Program-made: the position numbers and the translations under genes
The notes under the pieces: model-generated
The model's input: the letters and a program-made list of their open reading frames with translations, nothing else
The model's database searches: none
Told to the model about the DNA's origin: nothing
In this document: positions 16,904 to 64,000 of the stretch, one piece after another
Numbering within the stretch: position 1 is the first letter of the stretch
How the letters are laid out: every line of letters starts with the position of its first letter
NCBI GenBank assembly: GCA_040757775.1
Contig: JBFLWQ010000014.1
Location: 1-64,000, forward strand
Length of the DNA: 64,000 nt
Source: Thermodesulfobacteriota bacterium
GTDB lineage: Bacteria; Desulfobacterota; UBA8473
Direction of reading: 5' to 3'

Positions 16904-16960
16904 AGTAATATAAATAGTTAGAAGATATGTAATTCTGAACAACCGAAGGGAGAGATATAA

Positions 16961-19153: not shown

Positions 19154-19174
19154 TTTAACCGGGGGGCTAAAATC

Positions 19175-19639: not shown

Positions 19640-19680
19640 GAATGTAACTATTCAGCTTTTATTTAAAGCTCTGTATCTTA

Positions 19681-19706
19681 GACAGCCCCGATTTATCGGG
19701 GTTGTC
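19681..19706. terminator. hairpin between convergent genes, possible terminator
   Basis: GACAGCCCCG and CGGGGTTGTC pair (one G-U) around ATTTAT in the gap between cvpA and the M16 gene. No clear T-run follows on either strand, so it may be a bidirectional weak terminator or a small repeat. Confidence 0.45.
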
Positions 19707-19751
19707 CTACGTAGTAGATGGTTATTTAATCCATTTACTATAAATATATTT

Positions 19752-21206
19752 CTACTCATCCTTCAACTCTATCTCATGAACTTTACCAAACTCAGACAGT
19801 GGTCTGTCAAAATCCTTACTTTTGCCTACCACGACAAGAATGGAGCTATCAGGGTAAAGATACTTTGCCACCCTTTTAATATCCTCAAATGTAACCCTGG
19901 ATATGTTTTCCTGATACTTCTCTAAGAAATCCTCCGGCAGGTTGTCATAGTCTATGCTCATCTGCTGGTTTACTATACTGGCAGAAGAAGTAAAAGAAAA
20001 GATGAATTTGTTAATGATAGACTCCTTTGCCCATTGAAGCTCTTTTTCTGTAACACCGTTCTTCTTCAGGTCTTTTATAATGTTATAGATCAGGGATATT
20101 GCCTTGGAGGTAGTAACGGATTTGGTCTGGCATATAACGGCAAACACCCCATATTCCACATCACCTCTGTAAATACTCCCCACACTGTATGCAAGACCCC
20201 TATTAGACCTGATCTCTGAAGTCAACCTGGAATTGAAACCGGATTCTCCTAGGATAAAGTTCAATACCTTAAATGGAAAGTAGTCAGGATGGGTTTTTCT
20301 AACTGACAGATGCCCAAGTACAATTGTGGACTGAGGTACATCCTTAAAGGCATAATTTATAGATTTTTCAAAGGAATATGAAGGGGGAAGTTCTCTGGGT
20401 ATCTTGACCCCGGTTTTTTCCCAGTTCTGAAAAGCCTTTTCGACCTTTTTCACCATCTCATCCCTCTGAAAGTCTCCGGAGATAGCAAGCATTACATTTT
20501 CCGGGTGGAAGAACCTGTTGTGAAACTCAATCAAATCTTTTCTGGTAATCGCGTTAATCGATTTGACCGTGGATACCCTGCCCCTGGGGTTATCCTTGTA
20601 TAAAAGCCTTCTGAATTCCCTGAAGGCTATACTGTCAGGATTGTCGTTCCTGCGCCTTATAGCCTCAATCTCCTGTTTTTTAGCCAGGTCTAGCTTTTCC
20701 TGATCGAATCCCGGGTTCATCATAATGTCAGCAAATATCTTTATACCAATGTCTGTATCCTTCTTCATCACAGAAAGGGAGGCAGACCCGGATTCGCTTC
20801 CAATACCTATTTCTACAGCGCCTGCAATATACTCCAGTTGGTCGTTTATCTCATCCGGCGTCATAGAACGGGTGCCCCCTGTCCTCATAACTCCACCGGT
20901 TAACTCAGCCAAACCTGCCTTATCCGCAGGTTCATAAACCGAGCCGGTCCTTATAACCGCAGACAGATTCAATACGGGAAGCTCATGGTCCTCCAGAATA
21001 TACAGAACCATACCGTTATTTAGGAGTACCCGTTCCCCTTTTGGAGGAGAAAACACCAGGGGTTTAAAAATCATATCCCTGGGGTGCTGTGGTGTATTAG
21101 CATCCTCTGCAAAAGATGCCAGTCTGCCTGCGGCTACGACGCACAGGCAGACTGTTACTGCTATGATTATCAAATACAGTGAAATAATCGCCCTTTTCAC
21201 TATCAT
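19752..21206 (-). CDS. M16 peptidase-like subunit lacking the zinc motif
   Basis: A 484-residue exported protein of the M16 (pitrilysin/processing peptidase) family. Its signal segment begins at MIVKRAIISLYLI; the frame is open 48 codons further up but that part overlaps the preceding gene, and AAGGGGACG precedes the ATG at 21206. Where active family members have HxxEH this protein reads GLAELTGG, with no histidine, so it should be catalytically inactive. The RGLAYSVGS string, typical of the partner subunit, is present. It follows its active paralogue by 11 bp; the two would form the usual heterodimer, with this subunit supplying substrate-binding residues. Confidence 0.88.
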   Translation of the reverse strand: MIVKRAIISLYLIIIAVTVCLCVVAAGRLASFAEDANTPQHPRDMIFKPLVFSPPKGERVLLNNGMVLYILEDHELPVLNLSAVIRTGSVYEPADKAGLAELTGGVMRTGGTRSMTPDEINDQLEYIAGAVEIGIGSESGSASLSVMKKDTDIGIKIFADIMMNPGFDQEKLDLAKKQEIEAIRRRNDNPDSIAFREFRRLLYKDNPRGRVSTVKSINAITRKDLIEFHNRFFHPENVMLAISGDFQRDEMVKKVEKAFQNWEKTGVKIPRELPPSYSFEKSINYAFKDVPQSTIVLGHLSVRKTHPDYFPFKVLNFILGESGFNSRLTSEIRSNRGLAYSVGSIYRGDVEYGVFAVICQTKSVTTSKAISLIYNIIKDLKKNGVTEKELQWAKESIINKFIFSFTSSASIVNQQMSIDYDNLPEDFLEKYQENISRVTFEDIKRVAKYLYPDSSILVVVGKSKDFDRPLSEFGKVHEIELKDE

Positions 21207-47757: not shown

Positions 47758-48190
47758 GTGGTTAATCCAGGGAAGGATGTTGAACTGATAATCACTCCTA
47801 AAAAATACACCAACTCTGAAAAGGGTTTTACCCTGATTGAATTGATGATCGTTGTTGCCATTATAGGTATTCTGGCAGCCATAGCCATACCTAACTATAT
47901 TAACTACCAGAAAAAATGCATGCAATCAGAAATAAAAGTTAACCTCTCGGGCATTAGAGTAGTAGAGGAAGCCTATTTAGCTGAGCATAGGACTTATTGC
48001 ACAACACTATCCGCTATGGGTTTTGTTGTTAAGGGAATAAACTAGATATACTTATGCTGTTAGCACTACCACTACAACAAATTATGTTGTTCAGGCGTTG
48101 GGCACTACCGGAGCTGTGAGCGGGGACAGATTGACCATAGATCAAGACGGAAATCTGACAGATTTAGATACATCTTCCTTTTCAAATTAG
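47758..48190 (+). pseudogene. pilA: type IV pilin gene with a frameshift
   Basis: The frame from the GTG at 47758 encodes a class III prepilin: leader of 23 residues ending NSEKG, then [20 protein letters not shown] and an alpha-helical stalk, followed by a stop at 48043-48045 after GFVVKGIN. From 48041 the +1 frame continues with the expected C-terminus (TRYTYAVSTTTTNYVVQALG, then a segment ending GNLTDLDTSSFSN) to a TAG at 48188. The second half aligns throughout with the intact pilin at 48550. One inserted base, or two lost, near 48030-48045 explains this; translational frameshifting is less likely because there is no classic slippery run. Confidence 0.82.
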
Positions 48191-48549: not shown

Positions 48550-48954
48550 ATGTTAACCAAATTTAGAAAGTCTATGAAGAGCGAAAAAGGTTTTACCCTA
48601 ATTGAATTGATGATTGTTGTGGCTATTATAGGAATTCTGGCAGCCATAGCAATTCCTAACTTTCTGAGCTACCAGAAGAAAGCCGCGCAGTCAGAGGCAA
48701 AGACAAACCTGGGTGCCATCAGGACATTACAGGAAGCTTATGCGGCTGACCACGATACCTATGCTACGAGTTTGGATGCACTGGGTTTCTCTACTAAGGG
48801 AACGGCCAAGTATTCCTACTATGTTTCAACAGCAAATGCAACTACCTTTGAGGCAGTAGCAGAAGGAAAAACTGGATCCATTTCTGGTGACAAATGGACT
48901 ATGACCCATGGTGGTACATTGACCGATTTAGACCCTGCTTCATTTACAAACTAA
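48550..48954 (+). CDS. pilA: type IV pilin (major pilin, PilA type)
   Basis: A 134-residue class III prepilin. The short positive leader [14 protein letters not shown] ends at Gly14; prepilin peptidase would cut before Phe15 and methylate it. The conserved [20 protein letters not shown] forms the hydrophobic core helix, with Glu at +5. The C-terminal head is small (about 70 residues) with an alternating AT-rich/Thr-rich composition, similar to the short pilins of Geobacter-like bacteria but longer. AAGGAGGTGT precedes the ATG. A strong terminator follows, so it is a single-gene transcript. Confidence 0.93.
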
Positions 48955-48971
48955 TACCATTTTTTCTTTAA

Positions 48972-49022
48972 TTAAGCGGGCAGCAATCCTTTTTATTGGA
49001 GGGGGCTGTCCGCTTAATTTTT
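48972..49022 (+). terminator. rho-independent terminator after the pilin
   Basis: TTAAGCGGGCAGC (48972-48984) pairs with GCTGTCCGCTTAA (49005-49017, one G-U), the loop side closes further with ATCC/GGAG, and TTTTT follows. It is the strongest terminator in the window. Confidence 0.85.
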
Positions 49023-49033: not shown

Positions 49034-51154
49034 ATGCCATTCCTTATCTTTATCCTCACATTTCTCTTTTATCTTAATACGGCATCACCCGGGATTCTTC
49101 TTCCTGACAGCCCGGAGTTCGTTGCAGCATCTTTCGGCTTAGGGGTTGCCCATCCACCAGGATATTCCTTTTATCTGCTCATGGGAAGATTGTTTTCTCT
49201 TATTCCTGTCGGAAACTTAGCATGGCGAATGAATCTAATGTCGGCGCTTTTTGCTTCCTTTACTGTTGTCATTATCTATTTATCAAGTAAAAGAGTCCTC
49301 GAAGCTGTTTTCCCTGAAAAAGGATTGGGAAAACAAAATACGAAATGGGGACATATAAGAGAAACGATTTACAAGTCCTCCGCTTCGATAGTTGCCCTCC
49401 TCTTTGCTTTTTCTTCTTCATTTTGGTCCTATGCCATAAACACAGAGGCGTATTCGACAAATTGCTTCTTATTGGCTGCTACCCTTTTTTCCTTGATTCT
49501 ATATGTTTCCTCTAAAGAAAAACCGACAACAAATATGACTCTCTCCTTTCCAACGCAGAAAAGACAGAGATTTTTATATCTGACATCTCTTCTAATAGGG
49601 CTTCTTTTAGCTTTTCATACTGTAAATCTAATATATGTGGGATTATTTATTGGTTTTGTTGTTGTTAAGACAATATACATGAATGGTAAAAAAGAAATAA
49701 AGATAGAGAATTCGTTTTTAGCCTTATTCTTTTTCCTCTTAGGCATTTCTGTACTCTTTTACCTTCCAATAAGGTCTATGTCTCTCCCTTTTATTAATAT
49801 CGGTGATTCAGCCAATTGGTGGGATTTTTTCAAAACAGTTACGGGCAAAATTTATACGGGAGAGCTGTCTTTATTTTCCATACCTCTCAGGGAAAAAGCG
49901 TATAACCTTTTATACTCTCTTAAATCTATAGGGCATCAATTTACCCTTCCTCTGGCAGGTATAGGCTTGGTAGGTATCTATTTGCTTCTCAAGAAAAAGA
50001 TTATGACCTTTCTGATGCTCTTATCAGTGGCATTGGCTAATATTCTCTTCTTTGCAAATTATGATTTAGGGGCATCGAGAAATGAATCTTTCCCTTCCCA
50101 GCTTTTTTTGCCCTTTTATATTGTATTCTCAGTGTTTTTAAGTGTAGGGCTGGCAGGTATTGCAAAATGGGCAATCTCCAGGGTAAATTTCTCCACTGTT
50201 ACTAAATTCTCATCTTTATCCCTGATTATTATTCTGGTCATCAGGTTCCCGTTTTACGAAAACTATAAAGTGAGCGATTCCAGTTTAGACCGTTATTTTT
50301 ATGAATTCGGCAAGAGAAGGGTAGAGACATTCGAACCTAATTCTGTTTTTCTCTGCACAAACAGCAAAAACTCTCTATTCTTCTTGTGGTACTTCAACGT
50401 CATTGAAAACAGGAGACTTGATATTGATTCAATGCTGATTAACCCTTTTGTAAAAACCTCCCTTGAGAAAACTCTGAAAGAGCCTAAATTTGGAAATGTC
50501 TCAAAAGAGTTAAAAGGAAGAATCTTTAATAACACTATAGAGGTCCGTTCCATGATAATGGATTCGCTGTTAAAGAACTATCTCCCCAGATTTCCTTTTT
50601 ATATCAATAACCCGGAGGGATATATTGGCGAGGAATATGTAAGAATACCGGAAGGGAACGTGTACAGGATTCAGAGAGAAGCCCCGGAGACAATCGCAAA
50701 GAATCCTGCAATAGAAAAGACAGTTAATGCCGTATACAATGATAAGATCATGTTAATAGGCTATAATATGGATAGGTCATCCGCTCATATTGGAGAAACC
50801 ATCAAACTCTCGCTCTTCTGGAGATCTCTTCAAAAGATGGATAAAGACTACAAATTTATTGTCCTTATAACAGGTGAAGACAACAGGATAATAGGGAAAA
50901 AGTTCTCTGATCCATTTACCCATAAACCTGCTTATGGTATATATCCAACGAGCAGATGGAGAAATGGTGAAATCATAAAAGACAACATTGATATCCTGAT
51001 TCATCTCGGTTTTTCTCCTGGCATCTTTTATATAAATTTAGCGGTTGGGAGTGAAAAAAAAGGTGAGGAATTGTTGCCGATAACATCAGAGGATACTGTA
51101 ACTGAAGGAAGGTTTGTTCGGACAGCAAAGGTTGAGGTATTACCAGATTATTAG
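49034..51154 (+). CDS. DUF2723 GT-C-like membrane protein (first of two)
   Basis: A 706-residue polytopic protein of the DUF2723 family, which belongs to the GT-C glycosyltransferase clan (protein O-mannosyltransferase-like). LLPDSPEFVAASFGLGVAHP carries the acidic loop residues Asp25 and Glu28 expected of a lipid-phosphate-sugar user. About nine transmembrane segments cover the first 430 residues; a soluble domain follows, containing a beta-rich part near 590-690 (VMLIGYNMDRSS, SLFWRSLQ). No good ribosome site precedes the ATG, which lies just past the pilin terminator. It is 84 bp from its paralogue. Confidence 0.8.
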   Translation: MPFLIFILTFLFYLNTASPGILLPDSPEFVAASFGLGVAHPPGYSFYLLMGRLFSLIPVGNLAWRMNLMSALFASFTVVIIYLSSKRVLEAVFPEKGLGKQNTKWGHIRETIYKSSASIVALLFAFSSSFWSYAINTEAYSTNCFLLAATLFSLILYVSSKEKPTTNMTLSFPTQKRQRFLYLTSLLIGLLLAFHTVNLIYVGLFIGFVVVKTIYMNGKKEIKIENSFLALFFFLLGISVLFYLPIRSMSLPFINIGDSANWWDFFKTVTGKIYTGELSLFSIPLREKAYNLLYSLKSIGHQFTLPLAGIGLVGIYLLLKKKIMTFLMLLSVALANILFFANYDLGASRNESFPSQLFLPFYIVFSVFLSVGLAGIAKWAISRVNFSTVTKFSSLSLIIILVIRFPFYENYKVSDSSLDRYFYEFGKRRVETFEPNSVFLCTNSKNSLFFLWYFNVIENRRLDIDSMLINPFVKTSLEKTLKEPKFGNVSKELKGRIFNNTIEVRSMIMDSLLKNYLPRFPFYINNPEGYIGEEYVRIPEGNVYRIQREAPETIAKNPAIEKTVNAVYNDKIMLIGYNMDRSSAHIGETIKLSLFWRSLQKMDKDYKFIVLITGEDNRIIGKKFSDPFTHKPAYGIYPTSRWRNGEIIKDNIDILIHLGFSPGIFYINLAVGSEKKGEELLPITSEDTVTEGRFVRTAKVEVLPDY

Positions 51155-51238: not shown

Positions 51239-53326
51239 ATGAATTGCTATATGTATATAATCTTTATTGTTTCTTTTTTAATTTACTTGTTTACTCTGGC
51301 ACCAACCATCATCTTCTCCGATGCTCCTGAGCTGGTGGCTGCCGGTTTTGGATTGGGCACTGCCCATCCTCCAGGCTATTCCCTATATCTCATTCTATTA
51401 AAGTTGTCTTCCTTTATTCCATTGGGGAGCCTCTCATGGAAAGGAAATATCCTTTCCGCTCTTTTTGGATCTTTGACTGTAGTAGGGGTATATCTATTGA
51501 TAAAAGAGGTACTTGCCATTCTTCATTCTGAGAACGGGGAGAAAACTGTAGAACCAGAAATAGATAATCGTAAAACAAAGATACTTATTTACTCTTTGGC
51601 TATAGCGTCATCTCTCCTATTTGCCTTTTCGAATAATTTCTGGGACTATGCCTTAGGCTCTGAGGTATATACCCTGAATTCCTTTATATTCTGTTTGGTG
51701 CTATTTTTCATTTTAAGGGAAGCCCGCTTTGCCATGGGTTTGTTTAAATCTTCCAGAGGAGACGAAAAGAGATACAGAAACCTTTTCTTTTTATCCTTCA
51801 CCATAGGTTTCTTTATAGCCCTTCATAGCACTAATCTTATATACATTCCCTTATTTTTTTTAACAATCCTTTATTTGAATTGGAAATTAATGCCTTCGCA
51901 AAAATATTTACTTCCTTGCATCTTCTTTCTTATCCTTGCTGTATCGGTTACCCTCTATCTTCCCATCCGCTCACAGATAGATGAAGTAATAAAGATTGGA
52001 GACGCATCCAACTGGAAAGATTTTTATAATACTTTAACAGGCAAAGTTTATACAAGCAGACTCCCCCTTCTCTCTATCTCTTTAAAGGAGAGATTGTTCA
52101 ATTTTCAGTATGCCTTTACCTCAATATCGTTTGAATACCAGCTTTTCTTTATGGTCATAGGAATATTTGGCATCTGGATACTATCCAGAAAATTCCCTCT
52201 TTTGTCTCTCTTATTTATACTGCTCATACTGGCCAACGTATCTCTATACGGCATCTTTGATCTGGGGGCAAAAAAAAATATCACCTTTCCCTTCCAGCTT
52301 TTCTTTAATTACTATATCCTCTTTTCTATTCTTATAGCCGTTGGATTAAAAACGATACTAGAGGTATTAATCTCTTTTAAGCCACTTAGGTTTCTAAGTC
52401 GTACACCTCATTGCTTGCTCTTACTATCTTTAATACCGCTATTCCCTTTGTATCAGAACTATCGCATCAATAACCCCTCTGATTACTACTTCTTTCACGA
52501 CTTTGGAAAAAATGTCCTTAGCTTTCTGGAACAGGGGTCCTATTTCTTGACTACGAACAAAGAGAACCTCTTGTTTTATTTCCTGTACTTTCAATTCATT
52601 GAGGGCAGATGGCAGGATGTCAATGTCCTGACGATCAATCCTTTTATACGGGCGCCTCTGGTAAAGCTGATAAAAACCCCGGAGCACAGAAAGGCACTAC
52701 AGATTCTAAAGAACGAGCATTTCGATAACAAAGGTTTGGGTATTATAAATGCCTTAGTAAAAAACTATGTGGACAAAGGGCCATTTTTTGCTAACATACA
52801 AAGGGAATATATAAGCGATGAATACATAAAAATTCCAAAAGGTTACATCTTCAAGATACAGAAAGAAGCAGAGGGTTTTATAGTCAAAGATCCTGAAATT
52901 GTTTATGAAACAATGGTCTCCTATGGCAATAAGATAGAACTTGTGGGCTATAATCTGGATAAAACGATAATAGCCAGAGGAGAGCCCCTGCACGTTACCT
53001 GTTTCTGGCAGCGTCTCAGTCAATTAGGAAAAAATCATAAGATAATAGTCGTAATAACGGATCAGTCTGGTAGAATCTTGAGGGAACTCTATAATCATCC
53101 CCTCTCTCACTACCCTGTCTATGGCGCCTATCCCACGTCTCAATGGAAGGAAAGTGAAATGGTTAAAGACGAGGGCTATTTTATGCCCCACTTTAATATA
53201 GCGCCAGGGAATTACTATATTAACATCGGCATATCAGATGGAAAGGAACTCTTACCCATAACCCAAAGCCAGACCAAAACTGAGGGAAGGTTCGCCAGGT
53301 TGGAGAAGATTACAATTAACCCATAA
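51239..53326 (+). CDS. DUF2723 GT-C-like membrane protein (second of two)
   Basis: A 695-residue tandem paralogue of the previous gene, colinear over its whole length. IIFSDAPELVAAGFGLGTAH holds the same acidic loop (Asp28, Glu31), followed by matching HPPGYSLYLILLKLSSFIPL. The C-terminal soluble domain (KIELVGYNLDKT, TCFWQRLS, GAYPTSQWKESEM) repeats that of the first copy. The two copies have diverged strongly, so this is an old duplication with probably different sugar or acceptor preference. The stop codon lies within a 21 bp-arm hairpin. Confidence 0.8.
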   Translation: MNCYMYIIFIVSFLIYLFTLAPTIIFSDAPELVAAGFGLGTAHPPGYSLYLILLKLSSFIPLGSLSWKGNILSALFGSLTVVGVYLLIKEVLAILHSENGEKTVEPEIDNRKTKILIYSLAIASSLLFAFSNNFWDYALGSEVYTLNSFIFCLVLFFILREARFAMGLFKSSRGDEKRYRNLFFLSFTIGFFIALHSTNLIYIPLFFLTILYLNWKLMPSQKYLLPCIFFLILAVSVTLYLPIRSQIDEVIKIGDASNWKDFYNTLTGKVYTSRLPLLSISLKERLFNFQYAFTSISFEYQLFFMVIGIFGIWILSRKFPLLSLLFILLILANVSLYGIFDLGAKKNITFPFQLFFNYYILFSILIAVGLKTILEVLISFKPLRFLSRTPHCLLLLSLIPLFPLYQNYRINNPSDYYFFHDFGKNVLSFLEQGSYFLTTNKENLLFYFLYFQFIEGRWQDVNVLTINPFIRAPLVKLIKTPEHRKALQILKNEHFDNKGLGIINALVKNYVDKGPFFANIQREYISDEYIKIPKGYIFKIQKEAEGFIVKDPEIVYETMVSYGNKIELVGYNLDKTIIARGEPLHVTCFWQRLSQLGKNHKIIVVITDQSGRILRELYNHPLSHYPVYGAYPTSQWKESEMVKDEGYFMPHFNIAPGNYYINIGISDGKELLPITQSQTKTEGRFARLEKITINP

Positions 53327-53370: not shown

Positions 53371-53563
53371 GAAAAATTTCCTTTGGAGCGAACATTAGCT
53401 GGATTTTTGGGGAACCCTTCTTAATCCGCCAGAGGCGGATAGAAAATTAACATGTTTGACCCGCCAGAGGCGGGGAGTTTGTTAATTTTCATGGAGCGAG
53501 CTTAGATGGGTCGAAAATACTGCTCCAGAGAGCGGAAAAGGGAATTTTTCAGGGCGGACTAAT
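53371..53563 (+). repeat. family A dispersed palindromic repeat, copy 4
   Basis: Opens with GAAAAATTTCCTTTGGAGCG and ends GAGCGGAAAAGGGAATTTTT, as copy 1. The inside differs: CCGCCAGAGGCGG occurs twice, and GAAAATTAACA faces TTGTTAATTTTC. The short frame of copies 1 and 2 is not preserved here. It separates the DUF2723 pair from the glycosyltransferase operon. Confidence 0.8.
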
Positions 53564-53576: not shown

Positions 53577-54530
53577 ATGTATAAAGATAAAAAAATCGGC
53601 GTTGTCGTTCCTGCATATAACGAAGAGTTAATGATTAAGAAGGCACTCTTGTCCATCCCGGAACTTGTGGACATAGTTATAGTTGTGGATGATTGCAGCT
53701 TAGACCGAACGTCTGAGCTCGTGGAAGAATGTCAAAAAACATATGGCAGGATTATATTTATTCAGCATGACAAAAATCAGGGGGTTGGGGGAACTATTGT
53801 AACAGGGTATAAAAGGGCTATAGAGAAAGGGATTGACGTGGTGGTGGTAATGGCAGGGGATGGTCAGATGGACCCTCATGACCTGATCAGAGTGATAGAG
53901 CCAGTAGCAAATGGTGAAGTTGATTATGCCAAAGGGAATAGACTATTCAGAGGAGAATCCTGGGAATTAATCCCTCACTACAGGTATATAGGGAATTCTT
54001 TTTTATCGCTATTGACCAAGATTGCATCAGGATACTGGCATATCGCCGACTCTCAATGCGGTTATACAGCGGTCTCTCTCACGGCTTTAAAAAGGATAAA
54101 CCTGGACTCAATATACAAACGATATGGTATGCCTAACGATATGTTGGTCAAATTGAACATACACGATTTCAAAGTAAGGGATATCTCAGTAAAACCGGTT
54201 TATAACCAGGGAGAAAAATCAAACATTAAACTGTGGAGAGTTATCCCCACTATATCCTGGTTATTGACAAAGGGGTTCTTCAGGAGGATTTTTGAAAAAT
54301 ACGTTATAAGAGATTTTCATCCCCTTGTATTCTTTTATCTATTTGGAATTCTGTTCTTTCTAGTCGGTTCTGGTTTAGGTATATTTACTCTGATTATCGA
54401 CCAACTGAAGCTTTTTGAGATAGGATACGGCTGGATGATTCTGGGGGGTATGCTGTTTATGTCCGGGATACAACTCATCCTCTTTGCTATGTGGTTTGAT
54501 ATGGACAACAACAAAGACCTAAAAGGGTAG
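53577..54530 (+). CDS. family 2 glycosyltransferase with C-terminal membrane segments
   Basis: A 317-residue GT-A glycosyltransferase similar to dolichol/polyprenyl-phosphate sugar synthases. VVPAYNEE and the nucleotide-binding IVIVVDDCSLDRT (Asp38, Asp39) are followed by the DXD-type GDGQMDP near residue 97. Two transmembrane helices end the protein (about 242-305), as in the membrane-tethered subclass. It would charge a polyprenyl phosphate with a sugar for the GT-C-like proteins around it. It heads a closely spaced run of eight plus-strand genes. Confidence 0.87.
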   Translation: MYKDKKIGVVVPAYNEELMIKKALLSIPELVDIVIVVDDCSLDRTSELVEECQKTYGRIIFIQHDKNQGVGGTIVTGYKRAIEKGIDVVVVMAGDGQMDPHDLIRVIEPVANGEVDYAKGNRLFRGESWELIPHYRYIGNSFLSLLTKIASGYWHIADSQCGYTAVSLTALKRINLDSIYKRYGMPNDMLVKLNIHDFKVRDISVKPVYNQGEKSNIKLWRVIPTISWLLTKGFFRRIFEKYVIRDFHPLVFFYLFGILFFLVGSGLGIFTLIIDQLKLFEIGYGWMILGGMLFMSGIQLILFAMWFDMDNNKDLKG

Positions 54531-54538
54531 AAATTCAC

Positions 54539-56491
54539 ATGGAACAGGTAAAATTGTGGTACATGCCGCACAATTTATATAAGATATTTTTTATTATAGT
54601 CATTTTCTGGATATTCTCATGGAGTATTAATGGAATCCGGTTTTCCTATGATTCATGGAGCCATCTGTCCATTGGAAGGTATATCATTGACAATCTAACC
54701 ATACCGAAAACCTTTGTTTTTTCTTACTCCCTCCCACAGAAGGAATGGATAGACTATGAATGGCTTTTTCAGGTTATATTCTATCAGGTATTCCGCATTT
54801 TTTCCTATAAGGGTGCTCTTGTCTTTGGGGCTTTGCTTATTACAGCAACTTTTCTTCTTGTATGTCTACATCGTTCGTTTAGGGGGAAAACTTCGGGGAA
54901 AAACTTCGAAGATTGGTATGATTTACAGGATTACCTTAACAAAAGGGTTATCATCCATTTTATGGTTATCATGGTAGCCTTTCTGGTTATTGAATCCAGA
55001 TTAACCCTTCGTCCCCACCTCTTTGAATATCTATTTCTGGCATCATTTCTCATTATCCTGTTCAAGTACAATGCCAGTAAAAAGAGTTTCATAATGCTCC
55101 CCCTCATTCAGATTCTCTGGATCAATATACATGGGAGCGCTATTTTAGGACCCTCGATAATTCTAGCCTACTTAACAGGGAAAACGATAGATAATTCTAT
55201 TGCTGCCGATCAAGAAGGCAGGGGTTGGAATAACTTGGGGGGCTTATTTATGCTCTTTCTATTGGTCTCGATATCGACAATTGTTAACCCATATACGTAC
55301 AAAATTTTTCAGGTTCCTTACGAATCGGTGGTCTTCTATTTAAAGAATCCGGATATTCAACCTCTATTTGCGGAAAGGCAAAACATATTTGTTACCAGTT
55401 CTTTTATTGAGATACTCCCTTGCATAATCCTGCTCTTTGTGAGCGGGTACTCCTTTCTAACGCTGAGGAAAGAACAGAGGCTTTCGGATTTGTTGGTCTA
55501 CTTTCTTTTTGTCTCACTCCTGTTAGGGGGAAAAAGATTTATGGGAGAGTTCGTCATAGCAAGCTCATTTTTTTCTCTTGAAAATATGAAACGATATGAA
55601 GACAAAAAAGCTGCTGAGAAAACCGGAAGAGCACTTTCCAAATCTCCTGTGACAAGCGTTATAAAACTGCTTCCATCTGTCCTCTTTTTTTCCCTGCTCT
55701 TTGTCCCAAATATTCATTCAGAATGGAATATGAAAAGCGACCGGTTTCCTCTCCCGGTAAAGGCAGAGGAGTTTATAGAACAGACAAACCTGAAGGGGAA
55801 TTTGTTAAACTCATTAGAAATAGGGGGTTACCTGATATGGAGAACCTTCCCTGAAAGGCAGGTCTTCTACTGCGACGCTCAGGGCTTCTCTGACCTTTTA
55901 CCTGCATTTATCAGGGCACATATCGATCCCAGTTCATTGAATGCTTTGGAGCAAAGATATGGTTTTAACTATGCCCTGGTAGCCATTAAGGATCGCTTCG
56001 ATAAGTATCTCAGTGAAGAGAAAGGCTGGTACCTCGTTTACTGGGACAATAGTTTTTTGCTTTACGTTAAAAAAGATGGCATAAATGATGGTGTTATTAA
56101 AAAGTTTGGGTATAATTGGATCAGACCAAAACCAAATCTTTCATACCTTGACGGCTATTTAAAAACCCCTGATAGGCTATCTATGGTGATAAAGGAATTC
56201 CAAAGGGCACTGATCTTTAATCCTGATTTTAAGGAAGGATACTCTTCACTGGGTTATATCTATCTGAAGTTGGGAGACCTGGAACCGTCTCTTAAAAACT
56301 ATCTCTCTTTGCTTTCTATTGACCCTCAAAATATTTCGGCACTGACCAATATCGGAGTGATAAAAGCCAGGCAGGGGAGGTTAAAGGAAGCTATTGAATA
56401 CTGGAAAAAGGCTATTGAAATAGACAGCAAAAATGTCACTGCTATCCAAAACATACAGAGAGCAAAACAAACACTGAGCGATAAATTATAA
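54539..56491 (+). CDS. GT-C-like membrane protein with C-terminal TPRs
   Basis: A 650-residue protein. The N-terminal loop FSYDSWSHLSIGRYIIDN followed by QKEWIDYEWLFQVIF is the pattern of a large family of membrane proteins (D-x-WxH...W-x-EW) thought to be GT-C glycosyltransferases. About ten transmembrane segments reach to residue 400. A periplasmic domain then leads to two or three TPRs (about 555-645: FKEGYSSLGYIYLKLGDLEP, ISALTNIGVIKARQGRLKEA). It starts 8 bp after the GT2 gene. The acceptor is unknown. Confidence 0.72.
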   Translation: MEQVKLWYMPHNLYKIFFIIVIFWIFSWSINGIRFSYDSWSHLSIGRYIIDNLTIPKTFVFSYSLPQKEWIDYEWLFQVIFYQVFRIFSYKGALVFGALLITATFLLVCLHRSFRGKTSGKNFEDWYDLQDYLNKRVIIHFMVIMVAFLVIESRLTLRPHLFEYLFLASFLIILFKYNASKKSFIMLPLIQILWINIHGSAILGPSIILAYLTGKTIDNSIAADQEGRGWNNLGGLFMLFLLVSISTIVNPYTYKIFQVPYESVVFYLKNPDIQPLFAERQNIFVTSSFIEILPCIILLFVSGYSFLTLRKEQRLSDLLVYFLFVSLLLGGKRFMGEFVIASSFFSLENMKRYEDKKAAEKTGRALSKSPVTSVIKLLPSVLFFSLLFVPNIHSEWNMKSDRFPLPVKAEEFIEQTNLKGNLLNSLEIGGYLIWRTFPERQVFYCDAQGFSDLLPAFIRAHIDPSSLNALEQRYGFNYALVAIKDRFDKYLSEEKGWYLVYWDNSFLLYVKKDGINDGVIKKFGYNWIRPKPNLSYLDGYLKTPDRLSMVIKEFQRALIFNPDFKEGYSSLGYIYLKLGDLEPSLKNYLSLLSIDPQNISALTNIGVIKARQGRLKEAIEYWKKAIEIDSKNVTAIQNIQRAKQTLSDKL

Positions 56492-56493
56492 CT

Positions 56494-57906
56494 ATGAAAG
56501 TACTATTAATTTCACCACCTGCATTTAACACCATTCGGGGGGACTCGTCGGACATCTTTGAAGAGGAAAGCGGCATTTATCCTCCGTTAGGATTAATGTA
56601 TGTAGTTGCTTATCTCAAAGTACATACTGACCATTCTGTAGAAATTCTGGATACTCAGGCAAATGGTTTGACTTACCCAGAGATAGAAAAGGAGATAAGG
56701 CGAATATTACCGGATATTGTTGGTATAACTACTCTCACATTTACCCTGATTGATGTCATTAACATAGCAAAAATGGTAAGAAGAATTGATAGCAATATCC
56801 ACATCTGTTTGGGTGGACCTCATGTCTACATCTATCCCGATGAGACTATCCGATTTCCCTTTGTTGATTCCCTGGTTCTGGGGGAAGGTGAGATAGCATT
56901 TGCAGAACTGACTGACTCTTTGGCAAAACATATCCCCCTGGATAAGGTAAAAGGGATTGTGTTTAAAAATGGGGGAGAGATTATTCATACAGAATCCAGA
57001 GAATTTAACACAAATCTGGACTCCCTTCCTTTTCCAGAACGAGGGATGACCCCCTATAAGAGTTATAGTTCTGTTTTGTCTAAAGAGTCATTAATGACCA
57101 CCATGATGACCAGCCGGGGCTGTCCATTTTCATGCATATACTGCCATAGACCCCATATGGGAAAGAAGTACAGGTACAGATCCGCTGTCAATGTTGTGAA
57201 TGAGATGGAAGAGTGTGCAAATATGGGTATAAGGGGATTTATGATCTTTGATGATATATTTACTTTAAACAGAGACAGGGTATTTGATGTATGTAACGAG
57301 ATTATTAACCGTAGATTGAATATAAGCTGGGACATAAGGTCGAGGGTAAATACTGTTGATTATGAGATGCTTAAACAGTTGAAAAAGGCAGGCTGCAAAA
57401 GGATATCCTATGGCATTGAAGCGGGTACAGACAAGGTACTGAAAGCATTAAAAAAAGGGACTACTTTGAAACAGGCAGAAGAAGCAATAAAGATGACAAA
57501 GAAGCTGGGGATAGCTACTTTAGCGGACTTTATGATCGGTTCTCCTGAAGAGGAGCGGGAGGACATAATCAAGACTATTGACTTTGCTCTGAGGCTTAAG
57601 CCCGACTTTGCACAGTTTACAATAACGACCCCTTACCCTGCTACTGAACTCTATAGATTGGGGTTAGAAGACGGATTAATAAAGGATGACTATTGGAAGG
57701 GATTTGCGGAAGAGCCTGACCGTGGTTTCGAGACCCCTGCCTGGGAAGAAAACCTTTCCAGGAAAGAACTATTTGGATTGCTACTGCTTGCTTACAAAAG
57801 ATTTTATCTCCGCCCAGGTTATATTATGAAGAGTTTAATTAAGGTTCGGTCGTTCAAGGAACTCAAAAAAAAGATGAAAGCCGGGTTAAAAGTCTTTAAA
57901 ATTTAG
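56494..57906 (+). CDS. B12-binding-domain radical SAM enzyme (first of three)
   Basis: A 470-residue enzyme of the cobalamin-dependent (class B/BchE-like) type. Residues 1-150 form the Rossmann-like B12 domain with SPPAFNTIRG and LGGPHVYIYPDE, but the DxHxxG ligand motif reads DTQANG, without histidine, as in many family members. The SAM cluster is Cys210, Cys214, Cys217 (RGCPFSCIYC). GIEAGTDKVLKALKKGT and DFMIGSPEE are typical of the barrel. Methylation at an unactivated carbon or a ring-forming step is possible. It begins 2 bp after the TPR gene and is 18 bp from the next radical SAM gene. Confidence 0.88.
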   Translation: MKVLLISPPAFNTIRGDSSDIFEEESGIYPPLGLMYVVAYLKVHTDHSVEILDTQANGLTYPEIEKEIRRILPDIVGITTLTFTLIDVINIAKMVRRIDSNIHICLGGPHVYIYPDETIRFPFVDSLVLGEGEIAFAELTDSLAKHIPLDKVKGIVFKNGGEIIHTESREFNTNLDSLPFPERGMTPYKSYSSVLSKESLMTTMMTSRGCPFSCIYCHRPHMGKKYRYRSAVNVVNEMEECANMGIRGFMIFDDIFTLNRDRVFDVCNEIINRRLNISWDIRSRVNTVDYEMLKQLKKAGCKRISYGIEAGTDKVLKALKKGTTLKQAEEAIKMTKKLGIATLADFMIGSPEEEREDIIKTIDFALRLKPDFAQFTITTPYPATELYRLGLEDGLIKDDYWKGFAEEPDRGFETPAWEENLSRKELFGLLLLAYKRFYLRPGYIMKSLIKVRSFKELKKKMKAGLKVFKI

Positions 57907-57924
57907 GAAGGGGACGGTTAACCG

Positions 57925-59346
57925 ATGAGAGTAGTTTTAATAAATGCACCTTATTTAGATATATATGGTTCAATAAACGTTGGAAGGAATCATGGTTTTT
58001 CACTTGGACTGGGATATATAGCCTCAGTTCTCCGCGATGCTGGAAATGAGGTTTATCTGTTAGACCCTGAGCCGTTACAGATGGACCATAAAGACATAAA
58101 AAATTACCTCATCGAAAAAGACCCACAGCTCGTGGGCATATCCTGTGCTACCCCTAACTTTAAGGGCGCCTGTCAAATAGCACAGCTCATAAAAAGAGAG
58201 ATGGGGATTGCTGTGGTTCTTGGAGGGGTACATGCTTCCGGAGTACCGATGGAGATAATGGAAAACTATCCGGAGTTTGATATTGTAGTCGTAGGAGAAG
58301 GGGAAAAGACAATGGTTGAACTGTCCCAGGAACTTGATAAACCTAAACCCCATTTAGAAAGTGTTCTTGGTATCGTATACAGGGATAATGGAACTGTAAA
58401 GAGAACTTTACCACGCCCTTTAATTGAAGACGTGGACAGTATACCCTTTCCTGCCCGGGATCTGGTAGACCTGTCTAGATATCGATCTCAGGTACACTTA
58501 GACCGGGGAAAGAGGTTTGCAACCATGCTTACAAGTCGTGGATGCCCGGCACGGTGTACCTACTGCGCCACCAAATTGACTATGGGAAGAGGCTTCCGTG
58601 CTCATAGCCCTGAATACGTAATATCAGAGATAGAGCACCTTATTACTGCATATGGCATAGAACATTTTGTGTTTGTAGATGACACCTTTACCATTAATAA
58701 GAAAAGAGTAGAAAAGATATGCAGGATGATAATAAAAAGGAATTATAACATTATCTGGTACTGTTTTGCCCGTGTAAATACAGTTTCAAGAGACTTGCTT
58801 CTGCTTATGAAAGAAGCCGGGTGTTTTAGCCTGCTATATGGAGTGGAGTCAGCTAACGATAAAATATTAAAAAATATCAAGAAAGGGGCAAATGCTGATC
58901 AGGCAAGAAATGCACTAAAGATCAGTAACGAACTTGGATTTAAGACCCTTGCTGCGTTTTTGATTGGCAGCCCTGGAGATACTAAAGAAACAGTCGAAGA
59001 AAACATCAAATTTGCTATAGAGTTAAATCCTGTGATAGCTTCATTTAATCGCATTACTCCATTTCCTGGAACTGAGCTATATGAAACCCATTACAAGCCC
59101 AGATACGGAAACGTTACAGTTTGGGACGATTTTTTCCCAAAAGGCATTAACCCGATACTTGTCTCAGAAAACCTGAGTAAATCAGATTTACAGAAGTTAA
59201 CTGTAAAGGCATATCTCCGCTTTTACCTTCGCCCTAAACAGATAATACGGATCCTATTTAATCTTGGTTCCTTTTCTGAATTTATGGCATATGTTCGAGG
59301 GGCGTTTGGCTTGTTCAGGCGCATTTGGGAATGGAAACGAGCATAG
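57925..59346 (+). CDS. B12-binding-domain radical SAM enzyme (second of three)
   Basis: A 473-residue paralogue. The B12 domain (about 1-140) has LGGVHASGVPMEIMENYP and VVGEGEKTM; the ligand position reads DPEPLQ, without the DxHxxG histidine. The SAM cluster is Cys207, Cys211, Cys214 (RGCPARCTYC). GVESANDKILKNIKKGA and AFLIGSPGD follow. Differences at the substrate side of the barrel from the first copy suggest a separate reaction, possibly the next step in the same pathway. Same operon. Confidence 0.88.
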   Translation: MRVVLINAPYLDIYGSINVGRNHGFSLGLGYIASVLRDAGNEVYLLDPEPLQMDHKDIKNYLIEKDPQLVGISCATPNFKGACQIAQLIKREMGIAVVLGGVHASGVPMEIMENYPEFDIVVVGEGEKTMVELSQELDKPKPHLESVLGIVYRDNGTVKRTLPRPLIEDVDSIPFPARDLVDLSRYRSQVHLDRGKRFATMLTSRGCPARCTYCATKLTMGRGFRAHSPEYVISEIEHLITAYGIEHFVFVDDTFTINKKRVEKICRMIIKRNYNIIWYCFARVNTVSRDLLLLMKEAGCFSLLYGVESANDKILKNIKKGANADQARNALKISNELGFKTLAAFLIGSPGDTKETVEENIKFAIELNPVIASFNRITPFPGTELYETHYKPRYGNVTVWDDFFPKGINPILVSENLSKSDLQKLTVKAYLRFYLRPKQIIRILFNLGSFSEFMAYVRGAFGLFRRIWEWKRA

Positions 59347-59394
59347 AGGGGGAAAACTGAAAATTCAGAGGATAGGATAGGAAAAAAGACACCT

Positions 59395-60783
59395 ATGGAG
59401 AAGGCATTGCTTATACATGTTGGACAAGAGGATTTTAGCTATACACTGGCCAGTAAACGGGATTACGCATTTAAGCGAGAGGTACAGATAGGGTTTGCTT
59501 ATTTAGCCGCTGCCCTGGCACAGCATCAGGTTGATGTTGAGATACTCGACTTGACTCTCAACGACTGCACCTTTGATCATCTCATGGCTAAAGTAAATGA
59601 GGAATGCCCTGTTTTCATTGGTTTTTATGCTGCCACGACTATCAAAGAACGAGTAATAGATTTTGTTCGTTTCCTGGTAAAAAACTTGTCAGACAAAAAA
59701 ATCCTCATTGGCGGCCCGGATATCTTTAATGTTGATGACTACCTGACCGCTGGTGCAGATGCCTTTTGCATAGGTGAAGGAGAGAGGACCATTATCGAAC
59801 TGTTAGAATATTGCCGTGGACAGCGAGAGCTGGACAGCATAAAAGGTCTTGCTTACTGTCAAGATGGTCAGATTATTCACACTCCTCCCCGGAAGTTGAT
59901 TGAAGACCTTAATGAACTGCCTATACCTGCATGGGATAAGTATGATTTGAACTGCTACTACGATTTCCATGTTTTTGATATGAAAACTCCCTATACCTCA
60001 ATCATGGCTTCCCGGGGATGTCCTTTTAACTGTACTTACTGTGTTTCACATAAGATTTGGGGAAATAAGCTCCGTTATCGCTCTCCAGAGCATGTTATGA
60101 ATGAAATAGACTATCTCGTCAAGGAAAAAGGTGTACGATATATCACTTTTCAAGATGACATCTGGGGATGGAACAATGACGAATGGGCGCGTAGTATTTG
60201 CTTGAGCCTTATAGACCGCAAGTATGATCTCAAGTGGCGTTGTATCCTCCATCCATTCAGTTTCAAGGGAAGCCGGAAAGATATTTTGCCCTTGATGCGA
60301 CAGGCAGGCTGCACTTCTATTACTACCGGGCTTCAGTCTGCATCGGCAAGGATTCTCAAGAATATAAATCGCAGCCCCAAAGAACCCGAATCACTTGCTA
60401 ACTTAATCGGGATTGCCAAGAGGTTAGGCATCAACAACAACACAGCTTTCATTTTTGGGCTGCCAGGCGATACAGAAGAAAGCATAGAAGAGTCAATCCG
60501 TTATGCGATTAAGGTTAGACCGACTTTTGCCGCTTTTTACACCCTTTCAGTACTACCAGGCTCTGCTATTTGGTCTATGGAACAACATGGACATTTTTCA
60601 AGATTGCCACCGGAATTCCTGGAACGAAAATGCAGGGAAGCAGCCAGGCGTTTTTACACTAATCCTCGTATCTTATGGCAGCTTTTCTGCTCAGTTATTC
60701 GCACAAATCCTAAATGGTTTCTAAAAGCCATGAACAGAATGAGCTACTTGACACAATTTGCAGGCCTTTCCAGACAGAGGTAG
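59395..60783 (+). CDS. B12-binding-domain radical SAM enzyme (third of three)
   Basis: A 462-residue paralogue, more diverged. The B12 domain includes IGGPDIFNVDDYLTAGAD and IGEGERTI, and again lacks DxHxxG. The SAM cluster is Cys209, Cys213, Cys216 (RGCPFNCTYC). QSASARILKNINRSP and AFIFGLPGDTEES are the later signatures. The first 20 residues differ from the others (HVGQEDFSYTLASKRDYAFK). It is followed 15 bp on by the flippase-like gene. Confidence 0.87.
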   Translation: MEKALLIHVGQEDFSYTLASKRDYAFKREVQIGFAYLAAALAQHQVDVEILDLTLNDCTFDHLMAKVNEECPVFIGFYAATTIKERVIDFVRFLVKNLSDKKILIGGPDIFNVDDYLTAGADAFCIGEGERTIIELLEYCRGQRELDSIKGLAYCQDGQIIHTPPRKLIEDLNELPIPAWDKYDLNCYYDFHVFDMKTPYTSIMASRGCPFNCTYCVSHKIWGNKLRYRSPEHVMNEIDYLVKEKGVRYITFQDDIWGWNNDEWARSICLSLIDRKYDLKWRCILHPFSFKGSRKDILPLMRQAGCTSITTGLQSASARILKNINRSPKEPESLANLIGIAKRLGINNNTAFIFGLPGDTEESIEESIRYAIKVRPTFAAFYTLSVLPGSAIWSMEQHGHFSRLPPEFLERKCREAARRFYTNPRILWQLFCSVIRTNPKWFLKAMNRMSYLTQFAGLSRQR

Positions 60784-60798
60784 AAAGGATGGAAGGAA

Positions 60799-61746
60799 TT
60801 GACAATAAAAGGGTTACTTCAAAACAAAGGCATAGTAAGGTTAATAGGTGCCCTTATATTTATTGTTATCCTTACCAGAATAGATTTTTCTAAAATCATA
60901 GAGGCATTTCTCATCACAAACCTTTTCTATTACTTGGGAGGGCTGGCATTAACATTACCGGTTGTTGGATTAAGTGCAATAAGGTGGCAAAAGATTCTGA
61001 GCATCCTGAACATAAAGTACAGCCTGAAAGACTGTTTTGCAGTTTATTCCATAGGGTTATATATAGGGTTACTAACCCCTGGGAAATTGGGAGATTTCAT
61101 TAAAGTGCTCTATCTGGCTAAGGAAAAGTTCTCTGTCCGAAGGTCGCTTATAAGTGTAGCTGGAGATAAGGTTTTCGACTTTATTGCTCTACTGGTATTT
61201 GGGATAGCAGGTATGGCTGTTTTTTTTAAAGATTCCTTAAACTCATTATTCTATTTAACTTTATCAATGCTGATAGCTGGTATGGTTTTATATATCACCT
61301 GCTGCCGAAAGAGAGGCAGCACTCTATTGGCAAGGATAACCGATAGCCTGGTTCCAGAGAAGTACAAAGACAGTATTAAGGTAAACAATCTATTGGATGA
61401 TCTTAGATTATTTAAAGGAAGAGATGCAATATGGCTCTCTGTATTAACCCTGACAAGATGGTCAATCTTTTTTATCCTTAGTTATATCCTGGTACTGTCC
61501 CTTGATATAGATATATCATTTTTAAATGCAACAATTAGCATAGCAGTAGCTTCTATAGCAGCAGTACTCCCTATATCAATTGCAGGTATCGGGACGAGAG
61601 ATGCAGCTTTAATACTAATGTTTTCTGAACTGGGATTAAGCGCAGAAAAGGCTGTAGCCTTTTCTCTCCTTCATTTGTCTATATCCGTTCTAATGGTTAT
61701 AATAGGATTTGTATTCTGGATGCAAAGACCTTTAAAGGCTGATTAG
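60799..61746 (+). CDS. LPG-synthase-TM/AglD-like flippase-type membrane protein
   Basis: A 315-residue protein with about eight hydrophobic segments of the lysylphosphatidylglycerol synthase transmembrane family (UPF0104/AglD-like). LLTPGKLGDFIKVLYLAK near residue 92 is the family signature (PgrxGE-type loop), and IAGIGTRDAALILMF a second one. Members without the catalytic domain are often beside glycosyltransferases and are thought to move or anchor lipid-linked intermediates. The start is TTG at 60799 behind GGAAGGA. It fits a role in translocating the product of this cluster. Confidence 0.8.
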   Translation: MTIKGLLQNKGIVRLIGALIFIVILTRIDFSKIIEAFLITNLFYYLGGLALTLPVVGLSAIRWQKILSILNIKYSLKDCFAVYSIGLYIGLLTPGKLGDFIKVLYLAKEKFSVRRSLISVAGDKVFDFIALLVFGIAGMAVFFKDSLNSLFYLTLSMLIAGMVLYITCCRKRGSTLLARITDSLVPEKYKDSIKVNNLLDDLRLFKGRDAIWLSVLTLTRWSIFFILSYILVLSLDIDISFLNATISIAVASIAAVLPISIAGIGTRDAALILMFSELGLSAEKAVAFSLLHLSISVLMVIIGFVFWMQRPLKAD

Positions 61747-61792
61747 TCTACCCTGAAACGTGAAGAAGTATCTATTGGAGCAAATAAAACTG

Positions 61793-63127
61793 ATGGACAT
61801 CTTTGAGGCAATTCTGAAAAGAAGAAGCATCAGAAAGTACATGGACAAGGATATACCTGACGAGATTCTTGAAAAGATACTGGAGGCAGGTACATGGGCG
61901 CCTTCATCCTGCAACGAACAGTTGTGGAACTTTATTGTTGTTAAGAGTAAGGAGACAAGGGAAAGACTGGTGAGTGAAGCCGGTAGTTCCTCTCTGATAC
62001 TAAAGGCACCGTTACTGGTGGTAAATACCTATCATAACCAGAACTTAAAAGAGGCTTATACCTCTATGGCAGTTGCCATACAAAACACCTTTCTGACAGC
62101 ATTTGCTCTGGGTCTGGGTTCCCTGTGGCTGGATAGTATTGGTAAAGAACGGGTAGTTAAGGATATACTGGCTATTCCGGATGACCAGGTCATCGTCTGT
62201 TTCAGCCTTTTCGGTTACCCTAAAAAGACTATACTGAATCCTCCTCCAAGAAAACCGCTGGATAAGGTAGTACACAGAGAATCCTTTTTTCAAAAACAGC
62301 AAAACACCTTTTACCATGATCCAAATAAATGGACTATTGAAAGCATAAGGGAATACCAACGATTTTTCTGTCGAAAAACTGAATTGGGACATCCTGTAGA
62401 TGTGGTAAACAGACATGAAAAAGCCTTTATTGAGAAGCTGTTAAGTGGTGTTTCAGATGCCATCTTAGATGTCTTCTCTTATGACGGTTCATTACTGAAC
62501 CTCTTTCCTATGGAAGCCCAACTCTTTTCATTAAATCTGTCCGAACAGACGTCCATTTATACGAAGAATGCTACAGAACATGAAGTTGAACATTTGATAT
62601 ATGACGGTTCTATAGAACTTGAGAATGAGTCCATAGGCACTGCGACCTGTCTTTTCAAGCTGGAGCGTATCCCGACCGGAGATTACGGAAAACTGTTTAA
62701 AGAAATCAAACGGGTGCTAAGAGATGACGGCAGGTTTCTTATATTAACTAGAGAAAGCAGATCCCTTTACAACCTTTTTTACATGGTAATGAGCAAAATC
62801 TTCGGTGATAATGTGAAGAAGTCAGCCATATTCTCATTTTTTGGGCCTTACAAACCTCTTAACTCAAAAACTATCAAAACTGAATTGGAAAATAGCGGGT
62901 TCAAGGTTGTCGTTGAGAGGTTTTGTTTGTTCCCCCCAATTTTTGAGGATATTTTTCACCTGTTTTTACAATACAGGGCGTCTGGAGGGACAACTTTCTT
63001 ACATGCAATGGGTAGGAAAAGCTTTTTTCTTACAATCTTGAGAAAGATATTCGATCTTCAAAAGGTTAGAAGATCCAGGTCCGGTTCGTTGGCTTTGATA
63101 ACAGCGGGAAAAAATACAACGCAGTAA
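61793..63127 (+). CDS. nitroreductase-methyltransferase fusion
   Basis: The first ~175 residues are a nitroreductase-type flavoprotein: MDIFEAILKRRSIRKYMDKD, WAPSSCNEQLWNFIVVK and later SLFGYPKK. About residues 195-430 have the outline of a class I methyltransferase: the motif I position reads AILDVFSYDGSLLNLFP instead of a glycine-rich loop, and a later DGRFLILTRES matches post-motif III. The methyltransferase part therefore looks degenerate. GTG at 61760 is an alternative start; GGAG lies 12 bases before the ATG at 61793. I know no named protein with this fusion. Confidence 0.72.
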   Translation: MDIFEAILKRRSIRKYMDKDIPDEILEKILEAGTWAPSSCNEQLWNFIVVKSKETRERLVSEAGSSSLILKAPLLVVNTYHNQNLKEAYTSMAVAIQNTFLTAFALGLGSLWLDSIGKERVVKDILAIPDDQVIVCFSLFGYPKKTILNPPPRKPLDKVVHRESFFQKQQNTFYHDPNKWTIESIREYQRFFCRKTELGHPVDVVNRHEKAFIEKLLSGVSDAILDVFSYDGSLLNLFPMEAQLFSLNLSEQTSIYTKNATEHEVEHLIYDGSIELENESIGTATCLFKLERIPTGDYGKLFKEIKRVLRDDGRFLILTRESRSLYNLFYMVMSKIFGDNVKKSAIFSFFGPYKPLNSKTIKTELENSGFKVVVERFCLFPPIFEDIFHLFLQYRASGGTTFLHAMGRKSFFLTILRKIFDLQKVRRSRSGSLALITAGKNTTQ

Positions 63128-63142
63128 GTTACAGGTTTAATT

Positions 63143-64000
63143 ATGACAGGTGTAAAAAACGAACATGATATATATGCAGAGACAGCCATAGGGCAGATCC
63201 CCCGCTTGCTCAGCATGATGGATCGCAAAGAATTTTCGCTCAACTATGGATGCCTTGATCGTCCATATTGGCAGTACAGAATGATAGACTTTCCAGGGGC
63301 ATCCTTTCAGACCGCTGCCCTTTCTCTTGCCATGGCATATAAGAACAACTATCCACACAGCGTATACTTCAATAACCGAAGGGTAAAAAAATGGGCAATT
63401 GCCGCAATACAGTTTTTAGCAAAGATACAGAACGCAGACGGCAGCTTCAGTCATTTTTATCCAAACATCTGGAGTCTTGCTGTAGTGGCATTTCCTGTAT
63501 ATTCAGTCTCGGAGGCATATTTGCTGCTGGAGGATGAAATGGACAACAGAACCAAAGAAAGCCTGTACAGTATGTTCAAAAAGGCAGGAGACTGGATGGT
63601 CAGATGTGATGACATGGAGGTTACAAACCAGATGGCGGGGGCAGCCATGGCCCTTTATAACATCTATCTGATTACACAAGACAACAAGTATCTTGTTGAT
63701 TCTCAAGCTAAAATTGACAGGATTCTTACTACTCAAACCCCGGACGGCTATTTCTATGAATATGGCGGTGGAGATATTGGTTACTCTACAGTTACTATTG
63801 ACTACCTTGCCAAGTATTATCAAAAAACCGGGAAGGAATATCTGCTGGAACCTCTGGAGAGATTAATCGAGTACGTGAGTTACTTTTTCCATCCAAATTT
63901 TACCTCAGGTGGAGAGTATGCAAGCCGGAATAACGAATTTGTTATACCAGGCGGCTTTGAGATACTGGCAGACAGAATCCCATTGGCAGGAACGATCGGG
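63143..64000 (+). CDS. alpha/alpha-toroid protein (partial, runs off the window)
   Basis: The frame is open from the ATG at 63143 to the end of the window, 286 codons. Repeated helix-helix units with QNADGSFSHFYP and TQTPDGYFYEYGGG (a QxxDGxF pattern near residues 95 and 200) are typical of alpha/alpha barrels such as terpene cyclases, uronate or glycoside-processing proteins. The function cannot be assigned. It starts 15 bp after the nitroreductase fusion, so it is part of the same operon, and may be a glycan lyase or a cyclase acting on its product. Confidence 0.72.
   Translation, partial: MTGVKNEHDIYAETAIGQIPRLLSMMDRKEFSLNYGCLDRPYWQYRMIDFPGASFQTAALSLAMAYKNNYPHSVYFNNRRVKKWAIAAIQFLAKIQNADGSFSHFYPNIWSLAVVAFPVYSVSEAYLLLEDEMDNRTKESLYSMFKKAGDWMVRCDDMEVTNQMAGAAMALYNIYLITQDNKYLVDSQAKIDRILTTQTPDGYFYEYGGGDIGYSTVTIDYLAKYYQKTGKEYLLEPLERLIEYVSYFFHPNFTSGGEYASRNNEFVIPGGFEILADRIPLAGTIG

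Follow-up and report, generated by a model that had tools for sequence, protein, structure and literature searches.

Pilin-accessory cassettes of Pseudomonas aeruginosa (pilA-tfpO and pilA-tfpW) carry a terminator between the pilin and the accessory gene as their hallmark (PMC11841053). We analyzed a comparable arrangement in a 64,000-nucleotide stretch of DNA from a Thermodesulfobacteriota bacterium (positions 1 to 64,000 of the 83.9 kb contig JBFLWQ010000014.1, assembly GCA_040757775.1; hereafter the window), where a plus-strand operon with a glycosyltransferase, three B12-type radical S-adenosylmethionine (rSAM) enzymes and a flippase-family protein sits in a type IV pilin locus. As in the P. 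aeruginosa cassettes, glycosyltransferase genes stand behind pilA past a terminator-like hairpin and vary between strains (PMC11841053); unlike there, about ten accessory genes are present, including the three B12-type rSAM enzymes and the flippase-family protein, the transferase candidates are TMEM260-like proteins and a TPR membrane family, and we infer the pilin acceptor.

Two kinds of extracytoplasmic glycosylation also resemble the locus. With three-component glycosylation (GtrA/GtrB/Gtr, and the pentofuranose systems with GT136) it would share the logic of a polyprenyl-phosphate-sugar synthase, a flippase and a GT-C transferase (PMC11127046), but its putative flippase is of the LPG_synthase_TM family instead of GtrA or MATE, it adds rSAM, nitroreductase and deacetylase tailoring genes, and its transferase candidate bears TPRs. 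A small GtrA-type or MATE flippase was looked for and the LPG_synthase_TM protein was the sole candidate found, so the locus does not belong to the GtrABC kind. The TMTC1-4 transferases have seven transmembrane helices, an acidic residue in the loop between the first two helices and C-terminal TPRs (PMC11292533). Compared with TMTC1-4 and TMEM260 (GT105/GT117), the family PF11028 is found here in the two TMEM260-like proteins (GTC1 and GTC2), and a third membrane protein (GTC_TPR) has the layout of TMTC1-4, although without detectable homology to these or to any Pfam family.

In hopanoids, HpnI adds GlcNAc, HpnK deacetylates it and HpnJ rearranges it to a cyclitol ether (PMC12583986). The locus likewise combines a GT2 glycosyltransferase, an HpnJ-like B12 rSAM enzyme, a deacetylase and an LPG_synthase_TM protein, which suggests a parallel logic possibly applied to a polyprenyl carrier; a hopanoid cluster as such was dismissed, as there is no cyclase and the scores are far below the HpnJ and HpnL cut-offs. 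The deacetylase differs, too, in being of the NodB type (Polysacc_deac_1). By analogy, the operon would work like three-component or TMTC-type extracytoplasmic protein glycosylation with an added rSAM tailoring module. The region is in our view best explained as a glycan locus accessory to the pilin, part of which is an exchangeable cassette, and we hold this reading with about even confidence.

An rSAM operon in a type IV pilin locus

The initial annotation had described eight plus-strand genes from position 53577 to the end of the window, and all eight are present in the order GT2, GTC_TPR, rSAM1, rSAM2, rSAM3, FLIP, NRMT, TOR, separated by 8, 2, 18, 48, 15, 13 and 15 bp. It had missed the pilin locus to which they belong and had advised extending the window to the right. 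The run proved longer than noted: genes in one direction continue from 48550 to contig position 75483. The head of the run is pilA (48550-48954, plus strand), which encodes a major type IV pilin of 134 aa (Pfam N_methyl, 2.7e-10; Pilin_GH; Pilin_PilA) that is 85% identical in congener G004. Two TMEM260-like glycosyltransferase genes, GTC1 (49034-51154, plus strand) and GTC2 (51239-53326, plus strand), stand between pilA and GT2. Downstream of TOR, on the same strand, a polysaccharide deacetylase gene is followed by a pilG-like gene, genes for an ABC ATPase and a permease, one for a membrane protein with TPRs, pilD, minor pilin genes and rfaE; further pil genes (pilGHI-like, pilD, minor pilins) are found on this side as well. 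The genome also encodes two PilT homologues above the curated cut-off.

Between pilA and GTC1 is an attenuator- or terminator-like hairpin (48970-49019, plus strand) with a 15-bp stem followed by UUUUU. Its folding energy is -29.9 kcal/mol (z -5.9), none of 200 shuffled sequences was equally stable, and it is kept in G004 and G001, making three genomes in all. A second, GC-rich terminator-like hairpin occurs at 53460-53474, in the 250-bp gap ahead of GT2; this gap measures about 254 bp in G004 and just 22 bp in G001. Upstream of pilA, a 95-aa type IV pilin-like open reading frame with a GTG start and an intact prepilin motif (47758-48045, plus strand) represents a second, short pilin or else a degraded copy.

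The arrangement recurs in the genus. Congeners G001 and G004 have the order pilA-GTC1-GTC2-GT2-GTC_TPR-rSAM1-rSAM2-FLIP-MT-PDA-pilG-pilH-pilI-pilD (the G001 contig begins inside pilA), pilA is followed by GTC1 in G002, and TMEM260-like genes are thus found behind pilA in G001, G002 and G004. The nearest named congener in collections, a groundwater Desulfobacterales metagenome-assembled genome (JACQWO01), has the gene order of G004.

A cassette swapped relative to sister species

The congeners share a common frame at about 80-93% nucleotide identity, into which a swappable glycan-type cassette is set that has been exchanged relative to the sister species (58170-64000 in the window, plus strand, continuing to contig position ~66074). 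In blastn comparisons with G004, the stretch that starts at pilA and ends within rSAM2, at position 58170, is ~80-85% identical, and identity drops to 65% over the remainder of that gene; from the 3' end of rSAM2 to 66074 there is no alignment except a 172-bp stretch at 67% in FLIP, and past 66074, inside the pilG-like gene, identity returns to 87%. The sharp breaks therefore fall inside rSAM2 and inside pilG, and the ~7.9 kb block between them (58170-66074), which holds the end of rSAM2, rSAM3, FLIP, NRMT, TOR and the deacetylase, either lacks homology to the corresponding DNA of the congeners or has diverged strongly from it. In its place the congeners carry a FLIP of their own (37-39% protein identity), a methyltransferase and a deacetylase (35-36%). 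At the protein level, rSAM2 is 56-58% identical to its congener counterparts versus 83% for rSAM1.

This pattern resembles that of type-determining surface-glycan loci (O-antigen, capsule), and the cassette may, as at such loci, be exchanged via its conserved flanks. The wholesale swap of half the gene block points to a pilus whose sugar coat can change, so that the type of pilus sugar would differ between strains.

Proposed route and transferase candidates

From the gene families present we infer a route in which GT2, working on the cytoplasmic side of the membrane, would attach a sugar to polyprenyl phosphate; rSAM1-3, the nitroreductase fusion and the deacetylase would remodel this sugar (by deoxygenation, C-methylation or ring rearrangement); the LPG_synthase_TM protein would carry the lipid-linked sugar across the membrane; and GTC1, GTC2 and GTC_TPR would pass the sugar from its lipid carrier to an acceptor, for which the major type IV pilin is the most likely candidate. 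The hairpin after pilA probably holds down expression of the sugar genes behind an abundant pilin message.

GT2 (53577-54530, plus strand; PF00535, 1.6e-23) has DD and DGQMD motifs, two C-terminal transmembrane helices and a weak similarity to AglJ/PpgS, and is a probable polyprenyl-phosphate sugar synthase. FLIP (60799-61746, plus strand) belongs to the LPG_synthase_TM/AglD-like flippase-family membrane proteins (PF03706, 1.6e-42; TIGR00374 over the cut-off) and has a weak match to HpnL. GTC1 (706 aa) and GTC2 (695 aa), which are 40% identical to each other, are TMEM260-like members of a protein O-mannosyltransferase family: they match PF11028 with 127.6 bits (6.1e-37) and 113.8 bits (1e-32), respectively, against a cut-off of 24.2, and D25/E28 of GTC1 are conserved after its first transmembrane helix.

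GTC_TPR (54539-56491, plus strand) is a polytopic membrane protein with seven predicted transmembrane helices, an invariant Asp38 just past the first of them (invariant residues D38/R158/E279/R333) and C-terminal TPRs matched by Pfam, a topology consistent with GT-C. Outside the genus, in five other families, 7 of 18 loci have a pilin gene at a distance of 42-252 bp from the GTC_TPR homologue; for comparison, 9 pilins occur in the 1.2 Mb of rSAM1 loci. We consider it a candidate lipid-donor protein glycosyltransferase. An AlphaFold2 model built from a two-row alignment reached a predicted local distance difference test (pLDDT) score of 38.6, the alignment depth being too small.

rSAM enzymes and other tailoring genes

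All three rSAM proteins have a B12-binding domain and a Radical_SAM domain with the CxxxCxxC motif (rSAM1, 56494-57906; rSAM2, 57925-59346, with the 5' breakpoint of the cassette inside it at ~58170; rSAM3, 59395-60783; all plus strand). The motif of rSAM1, an HpnJ/BchE/AprD4-like protein, reads CPFSCIYC. Its best NCBIfam model is HpnJ (TIGR03471), with 230.5 bits against a cut-off of 577.6. The solved structures nearest to its AlphaFold2 model (pLDDT 91) are AprD4, the radical SAM 1,2-diol dehydratase of the aminosugar paromamine, followed by TsrM, MgmA and OxsB; AprD4 is nearest by both sequence and fold (22% identity, template-modelling score 0.74-0.76), although rSAM1 is far under the cut-off of the AprD4 family model (123 bits against 500). 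The nearest solved relative of rSAM3 is CysS, an iterative methylase. At E<=1e-60, rSAM3 homologues were absent from the congeners and from all 297 genomes searched in the phylum; the rSAM3 sequence is 55-58% identical to two proteins of Portnoybacteria (L177).

NRMT (61760-63127, plus strand) had been annotated as a nitroreductase-methyltransferase fusion. The nitroreductase half stands (PF00881, 2.7e-27), but the methyltransferase half is a weak, degenerate match (Methyltransf_11, 20.0 bits against a cut-off of 21.2; motif I reads DVFSYDG) and may be inactive. The fusion was not found in 99 relatives, and in Patescibacteria the nitroreductase is a separate gene of 217-218 aa adjoining the GT2-rSAM1 pair, so the fusion is local. 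The deacetylase beyond the window (64851-65933, plus strand; Polysacc_deac_1, NodB-type) keeps the HDVD and HxxxH motifs.

TOR (63143-64000 in the window, ending at contig position 64837; 564 aa, plus strand) is a distant GH127-like protein. The alpha/alpha-toroid label given to it finds no more than a sub-threshold GH127 match (PF07944) and is unproven; a search for solved relatives returned just chance-level matches to complement C3. TOR homologues occur in 10 of 297 genomes of the phylum, several of them beside GT2 and FLIP genes, and those at L060, L062, L063 and L064 adjoin a flippase-family gene and mostly also GT2, forming a small module of their own that is not near pili.

Distribution of the module across phyla

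A scan of 85,000 species genomes with an rSAM1 profile yielded 80 loci, in Planctomycetota (many of them Brocadia), Omnitrophota, Patescibacteria, Nitrospirota, Nitrospinota, Myxococcota, Aminicenantes and others. In 35 of 64 loci the gene immediately 5' of rSAM1, in the same orientation, was GT2, which in most cases overlapped rSAM1 or lay within 16 bp of it, and within 6 kb of rSAM1 we found a methyltransferase (34/71), FLIP (15/71) or another rSAM gene (13/71). The pair recurs in ten or more phyla, with Brocadia, Omnitrophota and Patescibacteria among its carriers, often with a methyltransferase, a flippase, further rSAM genes or a nitroreductase. The genes are thus not scattered in relatives, and the lipid-linked product with rSAM tailoring that had been proposed from the window is supported by this linkage, but the idea of one fixed pathway is not, since the 3' half of the operon is a replaced, genome-specific cassette.

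Individual loci illustrate the range. In Patescibacteria, L161, L177, L178 and L180 combine the nitroreductase, GT2, rSAM1 and a methyltransferase, to which the first three add a further rSAM gene and FLIP, and L135 (Nitrospinota) holds rSAM1, rSAM2, another rSAM gene, FLIP, a SPASM rSAM gene and a deacetylase. In Omnitrophota, L138 (6066-15106) carries a pilin, an eight-transmembrane-helix protein, two TPR genes, GT2, rSAM1, rSAM2, a methyltransferase and pilins, so that here the rSAM module is independently linked to pilin genes, which flank it. We considered the shikimate-type genes that adjoin the module in Brocadia to be unrelated to it. In another genome of the phylum, at least seven B12-type rSAM genes occur on both strands of L129 (G018, 1-19899), with methyltransferases and large open reading frames between them.

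Most of these phyla require several label changes on the rSAM1 tree, a result that fits lateral spread but falls short of proof. More broadly, we tentatively propose a widely transferred module (GT2, a B12-type rSAM enzyme, a methyltransferase, a nitroreductase, further rSAM enzymes and an LPG_synthase_TM flippase) that would make a polyprenyl-linked sugar reshaped by radical chemistry into a deoxy, C-methyl or ring-contracted/carbocyclic form. Within this genus the module would be plugged into the pilin locus, giving pili that vary from strain to strain and bear an as yet undescribed type of glycan, and in anammox bacteria, Omnitrophota and Patescibacteria it would serve other surface glycoconjugates.

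Alternative explanations

Several observations weigh against pilin glycosylation by this locus. Pilins were found in only 5 of 79 rSAM1-module loci, and since the module is mostly not near pilins in other phyla, its product would not generally be a pilus sugar. Homologues of the TMEM260-like proteins elsewhere in the phylum had a pilin neighbor in none of 8 cases, and we dropped these genes as general pilus markers. The GT-C label that had been given to GTC_TPR is without sequence support, as none of its 18 homologues matches any Pfam family and a PDB profile search and hhalign comparisons with TMEM260-like and PMT_2 proteins were all empty. The flippase role of the LPG_synthase_TM protein is a family-level assumption. 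Finally, GTC1 is broken in G001 (L056, 251-2342) while its neighbors are intact; phase variation was considered for this gene and rejected, the lesion being a 17-bp insertion repeating adjacent sequence plus a 28-bp deletion, with no homopolymer switch.

Alternatively, the operon product could be a surface polysaccharide or glycolipid that acts with the pili and is merely co-regulated with them, which we consider possible but doubtful. The rSAM1-GT2-FLIP module lies away from pilins in most phyla, once beside a Bac_transf sugar transferase (L151), the deacetylase and the GH127-like protein would suit such a product, and some geobacterial pil clusters contain a 12-gene insert between pilD and pilH (PMC6060248). 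The operon is, however, without a Wzx, Wzy or polymerase-type gene, and the two TMEM260-like genes behind pilA together with the pilin-adjoining TPR family favor a protein acceptor.

Head-group remodeling of a membrane-retained polyisoprenoid lipid, following the hpnI-hpnK-hpnJ-hpnL logic, would account for the same four classes (GT2, deacetylase, B12 rSAM, LPG_synthase_TM), for HpnJ being the best model of rSAM1 and for the weak HpnL match. We find it unlikely: no squalene-hopene cyclase (PF13243) was found in G000, G001, G003 or G004, rSAM1 scores 230 bits where the HpnJ cut-off is 577.6, and the transferase-like membrane proteins and the pilin context would be left unexplained.

Methylation of the pilin protein itself by at least one of the rSAM enzymes, as by protein C-methylases such as MgmA (9ccb), which is among the nearest structures of rSAM1, is highly improbable, given that rSAM1 is tied to GT2 in many pilin-free genomes and that the sugar enzyme AprD4 is nearer.

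Significance

A limited literature search found no described glycosylation pathway with B12-type rSAM enzymes at its core. If the module does produce lipid-linked sugars tailored by rSAM enzymes, its occurrence in ten or more phyla, with anammox bacteria and the ultra-small Patescibacteria among them, would point to an unseen class of surface glycans. The pilus locus offers a testable entry to it: PilA is an abundant, purifiable candidate acceptor, and the sister genomes are set apart by a single exchanged cassette.

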